Source: Flavobacteriales bacterium | Lineage (GTDB): Bacteria; Bacteroidota; Bacteroidia; Flavobacteriales_C; GCA-002722245 | Assembly: GCA_002722245.1 (NCBI GenBank) | Contig: PBLA01000005.1 | Location: 1 to 38,798 of the forward strand | Direction of reading: 5' to 3' | Length of the DNA: 38,798 nucleotides | Shown here: one piece after another, positions 12,480-30,083 of the stretch | Position numbering within the stretch: position 1 is the first letter of the stretch | Layout: the number at the start of each line of letters is the position of its first letter | Translations under genes and position numbers: made by a program | The notes under the pieces: generated by a model | The model's database searches: none | What the model was told of the DNA's origin: nothing | The model's input: the letters and a program-made list of their open reading frames with translations, nothing else

Positions 12480-15400
12480 TTACCTTTTATATTCCTCATA
12501 CACCCACTCACCAATTTCATTCAATAATTCGATGAAATATATTCCTCGCTTTAGATGAGCAGCATTGGTATTATTATGGAGAACAAGTTGCCCGTTAAGA
12601 TCGTACACATTTAATGTTCCTACTGGAAAATCGGTGACTCTAATTTGATCTCCAGCAAACCAAGCTTTCGGCTCCCTATAAACATCCATGACTAAAATTG
12701 TATCCAGGTGATGACGAATTGATGGATGTTCAATTTCAATGAGCTCGAAATACATTAGTTTATTCGGAGCTGAAGGCCACAAAAAACTATAATGATCTTT
12801 ACCCTCTGCCTCCACAGTTGTGAGTGAATCAAATAGAATCCCATCTGTTGAATAATTAATTTGGTAAGCTTTTGTTTGTATTTCAGTGTAAATTTCCCAA
12901 TCCAATTGAATATTATCATCCAATCGCTTTCCTTTAAATGCAACAAGTTCTACCGCCAGTGGAGTAATTTGATTACTTCCTAAAGTCCATTTTGAAAACT
13001 GCCTTATTCCAGAACATTGAAAAGATTGATTATTGTCATTTAGTGATCCCCCCACAGAAAACCAGTTTTCTCCCTTGTCCGTTGATTTATACATGATTAA
13101 TTCACTTAAATTATTTTCATTTAATTCACTTTTCCAAAAATGAAATTCAAGCGTAACGTCTAAATCATAATTTATTTCAGGCTCAATATTGTATACTCTA
13201 TTAATACCTTCTTTACCCATTAAATTATATGCCTTAAACTCTCGTTCTATGCGTGTGTTTCCCATTGGAGTTTTACTTTGAATAGATAAGCCTAGGCCAC
13301 CGATATTTGAATAACTTCCGCCAATTATTGTTTTAAATAGACGTATTTTTCCAGTTCCAATGAGTGGTGATAATGCAGTTTCATTACTGATGTATCCTAC
13401 ATGTTTTAGTTCAATGATGTTATTTACCTCCAATGTTCCACTTAATAAAAAAAGCGTATCATTTAGTACTGATTTGCAATTAATCCTTAATGTATCTTCA
13501 TTCTTTTGAATAGTTGTTTTATGAAACTGGATGATACCCTCACCATGAATGGATTGGGCGTTTAAAGTATCCGTAAAGTGAATGAGGCCCTTTTTTGCGA
13601 TTAAATTTCCATTGCATCTAATATTTCCCTCTATGTAAATTTCTTCGTCGTAATTTAAAAGGAACGTTCCAGTAGGGGCAATCGTTATATGGCAAAAATA
13701 TTTATCTTGATATTTTGACTTAAATGTTACTGAATCTTCAATAATTAGGTGGTTTATTCGTGATTGCTCACTGGAAAATTCAAGGGTTCCTTTTTTTACT
13801 TTTGCTTCATTGGTAACAATCAACTCTCCTATATTGGCTTTTGTATGTGCAATGCCATTTTTATCAATGACTAAATTAAAATACTTCATTATTTTAATTC
13901 GTTGTTTCCTCGTTCCGTCGTAAACAAAAAGTGAGGTCCCTTCACGTACTTTTCCGGTTGAATTCCCATCACCAGCCAACAAAAAATGTCCGCTTGTTAA
14001 TACTAGTTGACCCGGACCATCCCAATCACCATTCACATCTACTGTTTTATCGTCTATTATTAATTGTAATGAGGATTCTGCTAAGTTTAATCTTCCATTA
14101 ATAATCAGAGAATCGCCAGAAATTTCTTTTCTACACGAGTCAACTGCGCCATCATCAAGAATGAGATTTCCATAATGAGGAGAAGATGAGATGGTTTGAT
14201 TTTTTTTCGATGCATAAATTACCGTTGAGGAATCATGTAAAATAAGTGTTGAAAAAAAAGAGGGGAAGATGATGTTTTTTTCGCTGTAATTGTGTCCTAA
14301 GGTTAAACGAGAAAGAGAGTCAATTGTAAAAGTTCCAGCTGGACTTCCTATAATTTGAAAGGAATCACACTGTAGATGTGCAGAAGGATAAATGTGGAGG
14401 TTTTCATTTACTTGTATATTCCGTGTTAATATTTTCTTTCCCGAGTTTTGAAATACAAGATTCTCTGCTTCTTGAACACAAAAAGGGATGTTTTGATTTC
14501 CCTTTTTGTTGAAGATGACTGTGTTGTTTTTAGCGCTTAAATCCCAATAGCCATTGATGTTTTGTGTGTCTGCCTGAATCAATAGTATTCCATTTTTATC
14601 ATTCGTGAGTGTGTCAACGCGCAGTTCTTTTGAAATGGATAATATCCCCTTGTTTTTAAGGTTTTTCCCCTTAACTCGTGGGATATAAATTGTGTCTTTT
14701 CCGTCGAGTGTAAATGAGTCATTGGAAAAGTAAAAATCACAAGCAGTTCCCATACATCCTTTAAAAATACCATTGTTTTGGATTCCAGCATTGATTGAAA
14801 TATCTGCAGTTGATTGGTTAATGAATGAACCAGATTCATAAATGGTTAGTTGGTTAAATGTTGGATCTGCTAAATGAGATCGGATTATAAGTTTTCCATT
14901 AATATGCACTGTGTCCTTGAATAATGGGGAGTGTCCACCAATTTGAATTTCTCCACTTAAACCAATAGTACATTGATTAACAACAGCATCCCCTAATTTC
15001 AATTGGCCTGAAATGACATCGAGATGGTTAATCATATGATGAGTATGAAACTTTGACGCGTCTTTTCCTGAATTTAAGTAAACCAAGTGATTATAATTGA
15101 TTGGATTTATGGATTGTTGAATGGCTCCGTTGTACACCACTGTAGGGTTTCCTCTCAAATCACCACTAAAATGTCCTGACACAAATAAAGAATCATGTTG
15201 AAGCATGGAAATATGATAGCCAGATCCAATAAAAAAATGTCCAAATTGCGGATGATTATTTAGAGATAGGTTCGTATTAACTATACACGTTGTTGAGTCT
15301 TCAAAATAAACATCGTTAACTAAAATCGTTTTTTGAATGGTAAGTTGTGAAGTGCCATAACCTTTAAGGGAATGAATAGTGATGGGTTCATGAATAGTAT

Positions 15401-16235
15401 AGTTTCCATTTCCATACAATTGAATATCATAAGCTTTGTGCTTTACTAACGGAGGAATCGATTGATTTCCTGTTCTATTTAATATGAGTGTATTTTTAGG
15501 ATAGGTTACATCCAAGGAGTCGATTCCAAATTTACTATTGGTCATCCTAAGAGTAAGTAGTCCATGGTTTTTTAATATGCCATTACCCGTTATTGACGCA
15601 GAAATTGTTAATGTATCGTGGTTGAGTAGTTCATCCTTGATTTCCATTGCATATACATTTAGTCGTCCCCTAATTTCTGTCTTTTTACGAAAGCTGATTT
15701 TACCATTAAAAAACAAGAATGTTCCTCTGTTCACTAAAGGACCTTTGAGTTCAATGTGTTCACTAGACGGATTGAATACGGAACCCAAATTAATGAATTG
15801 ACCAAAGGTTTTCAATCCACTTTTATTCGTAAACTTTAGAGTATCCTCAATAATTATTTGTTTCGCGCTCAGATGACATTTGTCTATTATGGAATTTCCT
15901 TGAATAGTGATGGTGTCAATACTCATTGTACCAAGTGATCTCCCCGAGATTAATCCGTTTTTAAAGTGTGCGCGTGATACATTCAAATTGTTTGAAGAAG
16001 AGTTAAAAAATAATACACCTTCGTTTATCAATACGGAACATACGGCATTAGATGAATTGATAAAAATAGTATCTCCTACGTTAATTTTAACAGTGTCAAT
16101 TTCAAGTGGCGATTGATTGTTTTTCCATGTACTGAATGCAGTCCAATTACCACTTTTCTTACTCTCAATAATACGTGCGATTGATTTTTCTGAGAGCAAA
16201 AAAGTCAAAAAGATTAAACAAAATAATTTGAACAT
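12480..16235 (-). CDS. Large secreted T9SS type A cargo protein, beta-helix-like
   Basis: This 1251-residue protein starts with a signal peptide (MFKLFCLIFLTFLLSEKSIA). A SGNWTAFSTWKNNQSP-like entry motif follows, as in many Bacteroidota surface proteins. Most of the length consists of short hydrophobic/polar strands with repeated motifs such as NxGxLxI, GNGxL.NHGLL and LNRTGNQSIPP (again near the middle as FNKKGNQNIPF), suggesting a right-handed beta-helix stalk. Near the C-terminus comes VELVAFKGKRLDDNIQLDW, then a sorting module ending LNVYDLNGQLV...RGIYFIELLNE, typical of the T9SS type A domain. It should be exported through T9SS and anchored or released. It has only three or four cysteines, unlike the Cys-paired adhesin at the start of the window. 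The function is unknown; adhesion is plausible. Confidence 0.88.
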   Translation of the reverse strand: MFKLFCLIFLTFLLSEKSIARIIESKKSGNWTAFSTWKNNQSPLEIDTVKINVGDTIFINSSNAVCSVLINEGVLFFNSSSNNLNVSRAHFKNGLISGRSLGTMSIDTITIQGNSIIDKCHLSAKQIIIEDTLKFTNKSGLKTFGQFINLGSVFNPSSEHIELKGPLVNRGTFLFFNGKISFRKKTEIRGRLNVYAMEIKDELLNHDTLTISASITGNGILKNHGLLTLRMTNSKFGIDSLDVTYPKNTLILNRTGNQSIPPLVKHKAYDIQLYGNGNYTIHEPITIHSLKGYGTSQLTIQKTILVNDVYFEDSTTCIVNTNLSLNNHPQFGHFFIGSGYHISMLQHDSLFVSGHFSGDLRGNPTVVYNGAIQQSINPINYNHLVYLNSGKDASKFHTHHMINHLDVISGQLKLGDAVVNQCTIGLSGEIQIGGHSPLFKDTVHINGKLIIRSHLADPTFNQLTIYESGSFINQSTADISINAGIQNNGIFKGCMGTACDFYFSNDSFTLDGKDTIYIPRVKGKNLKNKGILSISKELRVDTLTNDKNGILLIQADTQNINGYWDLSAKNNTVIFNKKGNQNIPFCVQEAENLVFQNSGKKILTRNIQVNENLHIYPSAHLQCDSFQIIGSPAGTFTIDSLSRLTLGHNYSEKNIIFPSFFSTLILHDSSTVIYASKKNQTISSSPHYGNLILDDGAVDSCRKEISGDSLIINGRLNLAESSLQLIIDDKTVDVNGDWDGPGQLVLTSGHFLLAGDGNSTGKVREGTSLFVYDGTRKQRIKIMKYFNLVIDKNGIAHTKANIGELIVTNEAKVKKGTLEFSSEQSRINHLIIEDSVTFKSKYQDKYFCHITIAPTGTFLLNYDEEIYIEGNIRCNGNLIAKKGLIHFTDTLNAQSIHGEGIIQFHKTTIQKNEDTLRINCKSVLNDTLFLLSGTLEVNNIIELKHVGYISNETALSPLIGTGKIRLFKTIIGGSYSNIGGLGLSIQSKTPMGNTRIEREFKAYNLMGKEGINRVYNIEPEINYDLDVTLEFHFWKSELNENNLSELIMYKSTDKGENWFSVGGSLNDNNQSFQCSGIRQFSKWTLGSNQITPLAVELVAFKGKRLDDNIQLDWEIYTEIQTKAYQINYSTDGILFDSLTTVEAEGKDHYSFLWPSAPNKLMYFELIEIEHPSIRHHLDTILVMDVYREPKAWFAGDQIRVTDFPVGTLNVYDLNGQLVLHNNTNAAHLKRGIYFIELLNEIGEWVYEEYKR

Positions 16236-25742: not shown

Positions 25743-25910
25743 ATGGAAACTGTAATGACCACCGAAGAGTACAATCAAACCATTCAAGAGCTTGTTCAAA
25801 TAATGAATGTTCCTACTGTAAACGAAGAAAAGAGAGGAGAGCTTGAAGAAATACTGGATAAAATTGATTCCTATAACGGAATGGAATTTCTTAAAATAAA
25901 ATCAAAGTAG
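25743..25910 (+). CDS. Unrecognised 55-residue acidic protein
   Basis: The ORF starts METVMTTEEYNQTIQELVQ and ends FLKIKSK. It is acidic in the middle, predicted to be two helices, and lacks a signal peptide, so it should be cytoplasmic. The pattern TEEYNQTIQELVQIM, a short linker, then ELEEILDKIDSYNGMEF resembles the N-terminal helical segment found before the helix-turn-helix in some HigA/Xre-type antitoxins, but the DNA-binding domain is missing because the gene stops at that point. No toxin gene is adjacent. A strong terminator begins 14 bases after the stop, which supports it as a real monocistronic transcript. ATG at 25755 is an alternative start. The function is unknown. Confidence 0.6.
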   Translation: METVMTTEEYNQTIQELVQIMNVPTVNEEKRGELEEILDKIDSYNGMEFLKIKSK

Positions 25911-25923
25911 TTAAAATAAAATT

Positions 25924-25964
25924 GCACAAAAAAAGGGACTTGTTTCAAGTCCCTTTTTTTGTGC
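25924..25964. terminator. Perfect 19-bp bidirectional terminator
   Basis: GCAC, seven A and GGGACTTG (25924-25942) pair exactly with CAAGTCCC, seven T and GTGC (25946-25964) across a TTT loop. The core GGGACTTG/CAAGTCCC flanked by A and T runs acts in either direction. It closes the small gene on the left and insulates the LRR gene on the right. Confidence 0.92.
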
Positions 25965-26022
25965 GATTTTTTAAAATGGTGTTACTTTTTTGTGAAAATG
26001 AATTATAGTTGAAAGTTTGTTT

Positions 26023-28719
26023 ATGATACGGTTTAGATTTTTAATAATCCAGTTTTTTATTTTTTTATCACTTAGTGTTTTTTCGCAAATTGATTACTTG
26101 AATTTTATTGAGAAATCTGATTTGAATAAAGAGTCGATTAAGGTTCTGAATTTGATGGGCTTATTGGATGTTGTAATACCAAATGAAATATCATATTTAG
26201 AGAATCTTGAAGAGTTAAACTTGTCTGGCACAAATTTAATTACACTTCCTAATTCTCTAATAAAATGTAAGAATTTAAAGCGAGTTGATTTAAGTTATAA
26301 TCCAAATATTGACATTAATCAGGTTTGCAGTGTTTTAAGAGGAATGGACATTAATTGGCTTTCTTTAGAGGGGTGTCAGTTGCCTTTTATTCCATATCAA
26401 GTTTCAGAAATACAGAGTTTAAAATATTTAAACGTGTCTAATAATTTAATTTATGAATTTCCTGATAATTTCGGTAAACTAGTTAATTTACTTGAATTGG
26501 ATATAGCAATGAATCAAATTGATTCAGTTAGTTTTGGACTTAATACCTTACCAAGGTTAAAGACTATTGATTTCTCCTTTAATACAAAAATTGTAATTGA
26601 TCATTTAATTTCTTCAGGGCTTGATTTTCCTGCCTTGGAAGAGATTAAGCTGCGAGGAGTTAGAAATTTCCCTGCTACATTAAATTTGCGAGATGGAAAA
26701 CTAAAGAAATTAGATTTATCTAATACGACTTTTAAGGATTTAAATCAGCTTACAACAGATTCTTTTAAAGTAGATTATGTAATTGCGAAGAACTGTAAAA
26801 AATTAGATTATAACCTAGCTTGTAAAACTCTACAGAAAAGCGGTGTTAAAAAGCTTGAAATTGCGGATGGAAAAATGGAAAATATTCCTTTAGGTATTAG
26901 AAGGATGAAAGCTTTAGAGGAGCTAGTTATTCAAGATGCTAAGATTAATTATGTTCCATCTTTAAATAATCATAAAAACCTTCGTAGTATTTTGGTTGAA
27001 AGTGGAGACTTAAATACAATTTTCAGTAGTGTGTCTAGACTTAAAAACTTGGAATATTTAAACATAAAAGAAACCGGAATTAATAATGCAGAAGTGGAAA
27101 AATTAGTAAGTCATTTTCCTCATGCTGAAATTGTTTATAATCGTCAAAAACAAGGGGTGCCATTTAAGTTTCCTGACTATCTAAAAGATATAAGTTATCA
27201 TGTGCCATTTAATTCATTACTAAAAGCATTTGAGGTTTTCAGCTTTTCGGGAGGAAATCGAGCAGAGGTGATATTAGAGTCGGGGACAGTAATTAAAATC
27301 AACCCTAACTCATTAGTAACCTCTGATGGAAAAGTATTCAGAGGTGATATTAATTTAAAAATTAAGGAATATAAAAATTCCCTTGATATTTATTTATCGG
27401 GTTTGCCAATGATTTATGATTCCGCAGCTGTGTATGGTTTTGAATCTGTAGGAATGTTTCAAATTGAAGCAACTACAAAAGAAGGAGAGAAATTGCAATT
27501 AGCAAAGGATAGGTCTATTGTTATTAATACAGATTTACCTGATGATAATGCTGGTTTTCAATCTTATTCGCTTCAAAATGGTAATTGGGTTAATAATGGA
27601 ACAACACCTAATTACCAACCAATTTTAGAGGTGATTCCTTATAACCAATATGCTTTAAATAAGTCCTTTAATTTAGGAGTTTTGGAAAAGCCAGAACTTA
27701 AACATGCAGATTTTGGGCTTGTGTTTTGGAAATCTAAAGACATAAATAGTTTCCAACTTCAGTTTTTAGGAACTGGATTTAAAAAAATAAAATATAAATC
27801 AATAGGATATGATGAAATATCAATAAATGAATTAGCCGTTTTTTCAAATGACAAATGGATTATTGTTGATAAAGATGCGGAAGAAAAAATCAAGTTGTTA
27901 AAATCAAACAAAACATTTTTAAGAAAAGATGTTTTTACTCCTTTTTCTTCTGATAATCCAAAGATTTTGTTTCAAGAGATTCAAGAAGTAAAACTTGAAC
28001 CACAGTATGAAAAAGATAATTTCTTACTTACCGTTATTACTGCTTCTTCCACTGTGCAGTTTGAAATTATTCAGGATTTCTCTAGAATGGGTCCTAAGTC
28101 AAGTAAACGAAGATTACAATCCTCTTGGAAAAAATATGAAAAAGTTTTGAGAAAAAATGAAATTCATAATAGTAATGTAAGACAGGCATATGAAGATGAT
28201 ATGAATAGTTTTCAAGCAGTTCAAGCACGACAATATGAAGACTCTATATTTATGGCTAATGATCCTATTGGATTTGCTGAACAGCAAAAGGCAAAACAAG
28301 AATATAAAGACTTAAAAAGTAGCCTATTTCAAGATGTTGTAAACAGCGGAGAATTTGAAATAACCGGAATGGGAATTTGTAACATTGATAGGATTATGTC
28401 CGATTTAATAGCAAATGGAAAAGAATATAGGTTTGAGTCCTATAATGATGAAGGGGATTCTATTGAACTTGATCATATTTCAATTTTATCATCTGCTTAT
28501 CAATCGGCAATGAAATATGTGGGTAATAAAGTGATGATAAATAAAAGTGCCCAAGCTCTAGCAATAGCAAAGACGAAAAGTGGAAATCTTGCGTTTATCT
28601 CAAAATCTGATTTTATGAAAGCTCTTTCAAGTGAAAAGGAGACTAAAAAGTTTAAATTCCGTGTAGTTAATCCTAAAGAAATAGATAGGGATGAATTGGC
28701 TAAAATGATAGCAATTTAA
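26023..28719 (+). CDS. Secreted leucine-rich-repeat protein with ZU5-like domain
   Basis: The ATG at 26023 gives an 898-residue protein with a signal peptide (FFIFLSLSVFSQ); a TTG six bases upstream is in frame but unneeded. Residues about 35-375 form leucine-rich repeats (LEELNLSGTNLITLPNSL, LKYLNVSNNLIYEFPDNF). A beta domain at about 405-540 has EVILESGTVIKINPNSLV, LKIKEYKNSLDIYLSGLPM and FESVGMFQIEA, a pattern seen in several Bacteroidota surface proteins and resembling ZU5. A charged helical stretch (about 690-770) and a C-terminal region that I do not recognise follow. No T9SS sorting domain is visible, so it is probably periplasmic or outer-membrane associated by other means. Its stop shares a base with the next gene (TAATG). 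The function is unknown. Confidence 0.85.
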   Translation: MIRFRFLIIQFFIFLSLSVFSQIDYLNFIEKSDLNKESIKVLNLMGLLDVVIPNEISYLENLEELNLSGTNLITLPNSLIKCKNLKRVDLSYNPNIDINQVCSVLRGMDINWLSLEGCQLPFIPYQVSEIQSLKYLNVSNNLIYEFPDNFGKLVNLLELDIAMNQIDSVSFGLNTLPRLKTIDFSFNTKIVIDHLISSGLDFPALEEIKLRGVRNFPATLNLRDGKLKKLDLSNTTFKDLNQLTTDSFKVDYVIAKNCKKLDYNLACKTLQKSGVKKLEIADGKMENIPLGIRRMKALEELVIQDAKINYVPSLNNHKNLRSILVESGDLNTIFSSVSRLKNLEYLNIKETGINNAEVEKLVSHFPHAEIVYNRQKQGVPFKFPDYLKDISYHVPFNSLLKAFEVFSFSGGNRAEVILESGTVIKINPNSLVTSDGKVFRGDINLKIKEYKNSLDIYLSGLPMIYDSAAVYGFESVGMFQIEATTKEGEKLQLAKDRSIVINTDLPDDNAGFQSYSLQNGNWVNNGTTPNYQPILEVIPYNQYALNKSFNLGVLEKPELKHADFGLVFWKSKDINSFQLQFLGTGFKKIKYKSIGYDEISINELAVFSNDKWIIVDKDAEEKIKLLKSNKTFLRKDVFTPFSSDNPKILFQEIQEVKLEPQYEKDNFLLTVITASSTVQFEIIQDFSRMGPKSSKRRLQSSWKKYEKVLRKNEIHNSNVRQAYEDDMNSFQAVQARQYEDSIFMANDPIGFAEQQKAKQEYKDLKSSLFQDVVNSGEFEITGMGICNIDRIMSDLIANGKEYRFESYNDEGDSIELDHISILSSAYQSAMKYVGNKVMINKSAQALAIAKTKSGNLAFISKSDFMKALSSEKETKKFKFRVVNPKEIDRDELAKMIAI

Positions 28720-29381
28720 TGAGAAAATTTCAGTTTTTATTACCAATAATTCTTGCATTTTCATTTACAAGTTCTCCCTCAAAAAAAATGAGGTGGGAAT
28801 TTAAAAGTCAGTTAGCAGACCCTGTAAATATTGATACAAAGTTATTGAAAGAAGCGGTTATTGAATATGTCAATTTCAGAAGACAAAAAACAAGAAAAAA
28901 CCAAATTCAATCGAATTTATATTTAGATAGTATTATTGGTCAATTTAATACTAAATATAAAAACAAGGATTTATATAAAAAAAGAAAAAAGGTAAGACAA
29001 AATTTTTATTCGAAAGCTTGGGATTTAGGATATACAAATTCTTGGTTTAAGATTATGTATTCTGAAAGTTCAACATTATTGGTTAGTGGGAAATCTATTT
29101 ATTTTAATTCTGAACTAAATGGCTTTTGTTGGGGGACAAAAAAGTCTTTAAGAGATACGAATATTAAGCCAATATTAGTTCCTAAATTAACTTACAGACA
29201 ATTAGCAAAAAGATTAGTTAGTCGGTCTTTACCTGGTTCGAATAGAAGATGGATAAATACTTCGGGAGTAGATAAAATTGGAATACAAGTGAATGTTAAT
29301 GAAAAAGGTTTTCCTTATAAATTGCCAAGTATAGAATTAATTTTCATAGTGTCTGGAAATGTTATGCCAACTAAATTATAA
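28719..29381 (+). CDS. Unrecognised secreted protein coupled to the LRR gene
   Basis: This 220-residue basic protein has a signal peptide (LLPIILAFSFTSS). A helix-rich, lysine/arginine-rich first half (VIEYVNFRRQKTRKNQIQ and KKRKKVRQNFYSKAWDLGY) is followed by a strand-rich second half with WFKIMYSESSTLLVSG and ELNGFCWGTKKSL. It has a single Cys after the signal peptide. I recognise no family; the first part vaguely recalls CAP/SCP-like secreted proteins but the diagnostic His/Glu residues are not evident. The start codon overlaps the LRR stop by one base, so it is likely co-translated and may act with it. Confidence 0.75.
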   Translation: MRKFQFLLPIILAFSFTSSPSKKMRWEFKSQLADPVNIDTKLLKEAVIEYVNFRRQKTRKNQIQSNLYLDSIIGQFNTKYKNKDLYKKRKKVRQNFYSKAWDLGYTNSWFKIMYSESSTLLVSGKSIYFNSELNGFCWGTKKSLRDTNIKPILVPKLTYRQLAKRLVSRSLPGSNRRWINTSGVDKIGIQVNVNEKGFPYKLPSIELIFIVSGNVMPTKL

Positions 29382-29478: not shown

Positions 29479-29486
29479 TAATTTTG
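29479..29486 (+). promoter_or_regulatory. -7 box of miaE
   Basis: TAATTTTG is a full match; a TTG lies 15 bases upstream (29461-29463). The expected leader is only about 10 bases. Confidence 0.6.
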
Positions 29487-29501
29487 TGTAAAATCTTGAA
29501 T

Positions 29502-30083
29502 ATGCTTGGTTTAAAACTTCCCACTGATCCTCGTTGGGTAAATATTGTTGAAAAGAATATCAGTGATATTTTAACAGATCATGCTTATTGCGAGCAAAAA
29601 GCTGCATCCTATGCGATTTCCCTCATTACAAAATATCCTGATATCCCTGAAATTGTAGAACAAATGACAGCTCTTGCGCAAGAGGAATTAGAGCATTTTC
29701 AAATGGTTCATGCCATTATCATAAAAAGAGGTCTTTGTTTAGGAAGAGAATCAAAAGATCCCTATGTGCATGATCTGATGAAGTTTATAAAGCGCGGAGG
29801 AAATGATGCGATGGTTTTAGTAGATCGATTGCTAATTGCAGCAATGATTGAAGCACGAAGTTGTGAGCGTTTTAGGGTGTTATCTGAAAATATAAACGAC
29901 AAGGAACTTGCCTCTTTTTATCGAGATTTAATGGCTAGTGAGGCAAAACATTACACCCTTTTTTTAAAATTGGCCCGAAAGTATGGAAAAGGAGTAGATG
30001 TTGAAAAAAGGTGGAAAGAGTTTTTAGCCAAAGAGGCTGAAATCATGAAAGAATATGGGAAAAAGGTGACTGTTCATGGATGA
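29502..30083 (+). CDS. miaE: tRNA-(ms2io6A37) hydroxylase MiaE
   Basis: MiaE hydroxylates the isopentenyl group of ms2i6A at position 37 of tRNAs that read codons starting with U, using a diiron centre. The 193-residue helical protein keeps the ligand set: Glu31 (HAYCEQKAA), Glu62 and His65 (EELEH), Glu117 (MIEARSCERF), and Glu147 and His150 (SEAKHY). The real start is the ATG at 29502 (MLGLKLPTDPRWV); the TTG at 29484 lies inside the promoter box. MiaA and MiaB, which make its substrate, are not in the window. It converges on the DUF2459 gene with a two-base gap. Confidence 0.93.
   Translation: MLGLKLPTDPRWVNIVEKNISDILTDHAYCEQKAASYAISLITKYPDIPEIVEQMTALAQEELEHFQMVHAIIIKRGLCLGRESKDPYVHDLMKFIKRGGNDAMVLVDRLLIAAMIEARSCERFRVLSENINDKELASFYRDLMASEAKHYTLFLKLARKYGKGVDVEKRWKEFLAKEAEIMKEYGKKVTVHG

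Follow-up and report, generated by a model that had tools for sequence, protein, structure and literature searches.

The window analysed here is a stretch of 38,798 nucleotides from a Flavobacteriales bacterium (contig PBLA01000005.1). It carries two adjoining genes, which we call A and B. Gene A encodes an exported-looking leucine-rich repeat (LRR) protein of 898 residues, and gene B a smaller exported-looking protein that, on the strength of a structural model, is best called a divergent CAP-fold protein. Linkage of the two genes across genomes is strongly supported, and on balance we lean towards the reading that A and B are two subunits of one extracytoplasmic recognition or assembly complex, in which B is non-catalytic.

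Searches of 60 relatives with B found adjoining A homologues and, in the window's own genome, a second, paralogous A–B pair. A profile of eight Bs was then searched against 395 genomes of the class, with matches at E <= 0.001 in 29 of them. Strong B places (E < 1e-20) numbered 19, in 15 genomes, and each of the 10 sampled genomes of the window's family carries at least one. The surroundings of all 19 were read, and at every one an A gene stands directly upstream on the same strand. When the search was reversed, with a hidden Markov model (HMM) for A's middle domain, each of the 16 top-scoring places (E <= 1.6e-9) proved to adjoin a B place. Weaker middle-domain places were mixed, G306 having a B and eight others no adjoining strong B, and two genomes that carry the pair (G327 and G194) are absent from the middle-domain matches listed. 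Sixteen weak B places (E 2e-8 to 9e-4) were also present in the class sample; no A gene was found beside B in the five of these neighbourhoods that were read (G225, G103, G267, G244 and G243). In a 395-genome sample of the phylum a strong B occurred only in the window's own genome, with seven other genomes matching at E 4.6e-13 or weaker; the other pair-bearing genomes of the class presumably lie outside this sample. A single-protein scan of the genome contigs with B found no relative. The pair is present twice in G000, G002, G004 and G006. Recurrence of A and B as a unit is more than chance, as the 19 strong cases demonstrate. The original prediction had proposed a two-component unit of coupled genes and had named the loss or separation of B in relatives as the observation that would count against it; this was looked for, and all 19 strong Bs proved to be linked to A.

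The junction between the genes is equally constant. The single base said to be common to the stop codon of A and the start codon of B is indeed there (TAATG), and in all 18 scorable pairs (the window and 17 others) the genes overlap or leave one base between them, a count that uses longest open reading frame (ORF) starts and that includes five pairs in which B may actually begin further downstream. The A tree and the B tree, each built from 18 pairs, share their main clades, and distances in the two trees correlate with r = 0.91, a value matched by none of 5000 label permutations; any shared species history is included in this correlation. Eight comparisons of non-synonymous with synonymous substitution (dN/dS) were made, and only the two for G001:C56 versus G004:C75 had unsaturated dS; these gave 0.08 for A and 0.13 for B, so that both proteins are under purifying selection as far as this one unsaturated comparison goes. 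For the window versus G002:C3, the proportion of non-synonymous differences was 0.20–0.21 and that of synonymous differences 0.71–0.76 (0.20 and 0.71 for A), which is saturated.

Several of these points weigh against the reading of A and B as one complex. The mirror-tree correlation may in part reflect shared species history, as just noted, the deep branches of the A and B trees differ, at low support, and dS is saturated in the window's own comparisons. The start of B in G363 is ambiguous, and neither the trees nor the junction count include this genome. Conserved adjacency can stem from shared regulation instead of binding, and adjacency alone does not prove contact. The two genes could be co-regulated while their products act separately, A as an LRR adhesin or scaffold and B as a CAP-like carrier of small molecules or lipids in the envelope. 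CAP proteins are said, in PMC11784157, to bind sterols and related hydrophobic compounds. The absence of any separated pair among the 19 strong B places, the constant gene order and the tight junctions speak against separate action, which we consider unlikely.

Next, the nature of B was investigated. B had been described as belonging to no known family, a description that has to be revised in the light of Pfam matches in sibling proteins, profile comparisons and the predicted fold. The Pfam CAP model (PF00188), which is independent of B, is matched over its cut-off by four of the 14 Bs of the family (G000:C24, G005:C42, G001:C56 and G004:C75), the G001:C56 match having been scored with its neighbours in frame. 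Comparison by hhalign of profiles of 9, 14 or 18 Bs with 18 CAPs, these being short proteins chosen from 30 Pfam-found loci, gave Prob values of 82.8, 63.9 and 81.7, and four controls run with the 9-sequence B profile gave at most 0.7. An AlphaFold model of window B built from 10 sequences, with a predicted local distance difference test score (pLDDT) of 72.6 and a predicted template modelling score of 0.69, has the alpha-beta-alpha fold of CAP proteins. When this model was aligned with VIA-align, the CAP proteins SAV1118 (4h0a; Z 15.5, root mean square deviation (rmsd) 2.0 over 124 residues) and Borrelia BB0689 (4d53; Z 13.2, rmsd 2.9 over 130 residues) were matched, as was 4ifa (Z 13.0, rmsd 3.3 over 128 residues). 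The rows with Z >= 7.7 numbered 41, of which 39 can be assigned to CAP proteins from their titles or from general knowledge and two belong to a Tetrahymena complex; the next row drops to Z 5.5. Foldseek gave weak E-values, with a Tetrahymena axonemal protein first (8th8_P, 1.3e-3), followed at ranks 2–17 by CAP proteins, from 1.3e-2 (BB0689). By sequence alone B matched nothing significantly in the PDB; with the 9-sequence profile the best match was again BB0689 (E 0.034). In the first helix, N52 and R55 do not vary across an alignment of 19 sequences, made up of 18 Bs and one true CAP. Less favourable to the CAP assignment are the results for window B alone, which matched no Pfam or NCBIfam model at E <= 0.1, a separate scan in which only one of seven sibling Bs passed the CAP cut-off, a first profile comparison that used only eight CAPs and was weaker (Prob 65.3 and 7.2), and the failure of Foldseek, taken by itself, to match the B model at E <= 0.001.

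The canonical CAP cavity is built on histidine and glutamate and has two cavity histidines. Since window B contains no histidine at all, and hence neither of these two, a canonical cavity is excluded in this protein. When the profiles are aligned, window B has an Asn where true CAPs have the histidine of their C-terminal (G)HR motif, and no histidine is conserved at 90% in an alignment of 18 Bs and one CAP. As judged from these residues, B is probably a non-catalytic module with a binding or structural role. The histidine-free state is peculiar to window B, and this counts against the preferred reading: the other 17 Bs carry two to seven histidines each. Together with the CAP fold, these histidines are what would favour an enzymatic B, either a functional CAP hydrolase or a metal-binding enzyme, with an active site evolved anew and with A positioning it on its substrate. 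Given the histidine-free window protein, the Asn at the (G)HR position and the lack of a conserved histidine, we regard such an enzyme as very doubtful.

With respect to A, the LRRs of the original prediction stand. Both LRR_14 (E 1.1e-11) and LRR_4 (E 1.4e-11) of Pfam are matched over their cut-offs, LRR_8 also matches the repeat region, and many solved LRR proteins are found among the best 60 of 171 PDB matches. XopAC, XopL and XopAE were considered as identities for A and rejected; the NCBIfam matches are far below the cut-offs and the LRRs alone are responsible for them. The repeats are followed by a domain that had been labelled ‘ZU5-like’, a middle domain and a C-terminal domain. In the sister genus, all five genomes encode short A forms of 540–593 residues that are without the ZU5-like and C-terminal parts and retain the LRRs, the middle domain and the partner B; the A protein of G277 likewise gives no ZU5-like match. 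Beyond A homologues, an HMM of the C-terminal domain found one match (L096, E 5.2e-5), and the MGICNIDR motif in this domain resembles, as judged by eye, the FGIYNCDR-type ending found in other members of the family. We propose that the ZU5-like and C-terminal domains are optional additions to A that are common to a wider Bacteroidota envelope family.

Because the short forms keep the middle domain and the LRRs as well as B, one of these two regions may be the binding site for B, and the middle domain is favoured because it is the sole non-LRR part retained. This guess is weakened by G194, which has a B gene and whose A has no recognisable middle domain at E <= 1e-3; an AlphaFold model of the non-LRR part of A, with a pLDDT of 36.9, was unusable and lends the complex no support either. 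Under the reading of A and B as subunits of one complex, both proteins would be exported by Sec and reside in the periplasm or at the cell surface, and the gene overlap would couple their translation. B would bind A, most likely at the middle domain, the LRR face of A would contact a ligand of the envelope or from outside, and the CAP-like B might support or cap the LRR subunit. We also put forward, more tentatively, a wider proposal: an undescribed bacterial system for recognition at the envelope, made up of a secreted LRR receptor and, as its obligate subunit, a degenerate CAP protein of PR-1 type, histidine-free in the window, that docks on a dedicated middle domain of the receptor. In this proposal the pair duplicates as a unit in Bacteroidia and serves a core envelope function in one family. 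This we hold to be possible rather than probable.

As regards export, the N-termini of A and B are both hydrophobic and, as read from the sequence, resemble cleavable signal peptides, and Q22 at the end of the putative signal peptide of A is invariant across eight aligned A proteins. The original prediction saw no sorting domain of the type IX secretion system (T9SS) in the pair, in agreement with the scans, which listed no such model (TIGR04183 or like) for either protein at E <= 0.1. Elsewhere in the window, a 1251-residue protein encoded at 12480–16235 on the minus strand matches a T9SS sorting domain below threshold (16 bits against a cut-off of 23).

The ‘ZU5-like’ label itself was not borne out. 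Pfam ZU5 (PF00791) was not listed for A at E <= 0.1, none of 25 members of the domain family matched it at E <= 10 within HMMER's filters, and no ZU5 chain was among the four PDB matches obtained at E <= 10 in a profile search. A ZU5 search of the genome also gave no match, and gave none in control genomes either, so that it is no evidence of absence. With no Pfam ZU5 match among the 25 members and no usable model for this region of A, ‘ZU5’ remains an impression, and the domain appears to be an unnamed Bacteroidota domain, with no Pfam or NCBIfam name for the members scanned. Taken as a whole, the observation behind the original prediction is partly confirmed and its interpretation partly supported.

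The domain is frequent in the class; a search with the non-LRR part of A matched 32 of the 60 relatives. In 12 loci that were read, what precedes the domain is an OmpA domain, a protein start of lipoprotein-like or transmembrane character, or LRRs (the last once, in L106), and a B gene is present at none of them. Outside the pair the domain carries the motif SGIPMxYDSAG...AGMFE (L097, L098, L102 and L105; also L101 and L106). At four of the 12 loci (L097, L098, L102 and L105) a sigma-70-type gene lies directly upstream of the ZU5-like gene; Sigma70 region 2 is over its cut-off in all four sigma proteins and region 4 in three. Members of the family are possibly sigma-factor regulators or envelope sensors. 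On this basis A could feed envelope signalling, with the A–B pair perhaps presenting a ligand to a ZU5-like protein encoded beside a sigma factor of the extracytoplasmic function (ECF) type. No sigma gene was recognised beside the pair in the neighbourhoods read, where no profile search for one was made, and the short A forms have no ZU5-like domain yet have a B; we consider a signalling role rather improbable.

An HFS-type motif is the signature of autoprocessing ZU5 domains. For such domains a CxH motif is also described in part of PMC3482391, where ZU5 appears as a processing domain of polymorphic toxins. This description is what would suggest a toxin–immunity pair. We rejected that reading as scarcely credible: Pfam ZU5 is unmatched, neither an HF[S/T] nor a CxH motif occurs in A, no toxin domain was listed in the Pfam and NCBIfam scans, B itself looks exported, and one copy of the pair occupies a constant site in the five sampled genomes of the genus, unlike variable toxin loci.

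The LRR and CAP folds are both known; within the open-licence literature, the new element is their fixed pairing as an LRR gene and a CAP-like gene, and no LRR–CAP gene pair in Bacteroidota was found among the matches listed there. In fold, B resembles the CAP superfamily (CRISP, antigen 5 and PR-1; PF00188), its nearest solved relatives being SAV1118 and BB0689. It differs in its pairing with an LRR gene at all 19 strong places, whereas Pfam CAP genes also occur elsewhere in the same genomes, and window B differs further in its lack of histidine and its divergent middle part. A shares its LRR domain with secreted bacterial LRR proteins such as Leptospira LIC11098 (4u08, E 5.6e-28), from which it is set apart by the extra middle and C-terminal domains and the coupled CAP-like partner. 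PIDD carries LRRs, and in both PIDD and A the repeats are followed by a domain that to a reader may resemble ZU5; unlike PIDD, A has no ZU5 sequence match or autoprocessing motif and looks exported. Two ZU5 domains are described for PIDD in part of PMC3482391. The unnamed OmpA-linked, lipoprotein-like or membrane-anchored Bacteroidota proteins have the same domain as A and, in the 12 loci, no B. The ‘cap domain’ of PMC5496941 is part of an LRR protein and not a CAP protein.

The CAP family includes plant PR-1 and insect venom allergens, and the roles of bacterial CAP proteins are, to our knowledge, little understood. Recognition and defence in eukaryotes draw heavily on LRR receptors and on PR-1/CAP proteins, and here one of each kind makes up a fixed bacterial gene pair. 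If A and B do bind, bacterial CAP proteins would gain a defined partner and a testable non-catalytic role. A further outcome of the analysis is a widespread Bacteroidota domain without a name, which is met again on an OmpA protein and next to ECF-type sigma factors.

Table 1. Features of the A–B locus (positions in the window; all domain borders in A and B were placed by hand).
Feature	Position	Strand	Remarks
Gene A, exported-looking LRR protein, 898 aa	26023..28719	+	ATG 26023, stop 28717-28719
Probable signal peptide of A, residues 1-22, ...VFSQ	26023..26088	+	Read from sequence
LRR region of A, residues about 24-380	26092..27162	+	Pfam and PDB matches; borders hand-set
‘ZU5-like’ domain of A, residues about 385-545, motif SGxPMxYDS...GMF	27175..27657	+	
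Middle domain of A, charged helical end, residues about 556-735	27688..28227	+	
C-terminal domain of A, residues about 740-898, with MGICNIDR	28240..28716	+	
TAATG, stop TAA of A and start ATG of B, common base 28719	28717..28721	+	
Gene B, exported-looking divergent protein, probably of CAP fold, 220 aa	28719..29381	+	ATG 28719
Predicted CAP-fold domain of B, residues about 36-215	28824..29363	+	AlphaFold model and VIA-align

One copy of the pair sits at the same site in all five sampled genomes of the genus (L044, L045, L080, L082 and L083). This site is flanked on one side by what, from the sequence, we take to be a radical-SAM-like gene and on the other by a gene set that looks to be of cytochrome-oxidase type. 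In these five genomes the pair stands just before the cytochrome-oxidase-type set and on the same strand, and the two may be co-transcribed. The site in the window is a different matter: among nine relatives, only G004 has the pair there. In G002, two other genes fill the interval between the MoxR and MiaE genes, and the pair is located elsewhere. Seven of the nine relatives have a MiaE-like gene, and in G004 and G002 it is close to the MoxR gene; G001 and G003, both incomplete genomes, gave no MiaE match.

An alternative in-frame TTG start of A is possible at 26017. Upstream of A, on the opposite strand, are genes for a MoxR-type ATPase, a DUF58 protein and von Willebrand/Bat-type proteins. 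Downstream of B lies a MiaE-like gene (29484–30083), which scores 120 bits with NCBIfam NF047790, a model whose cut-off is 320. The stretch from the MoxR gene to A contains a small ORF of about 55 residues (25744–25911), and 3' of it, near 25930–25962, a hairpin and T run that by eye resembles an intrinsic terminator.

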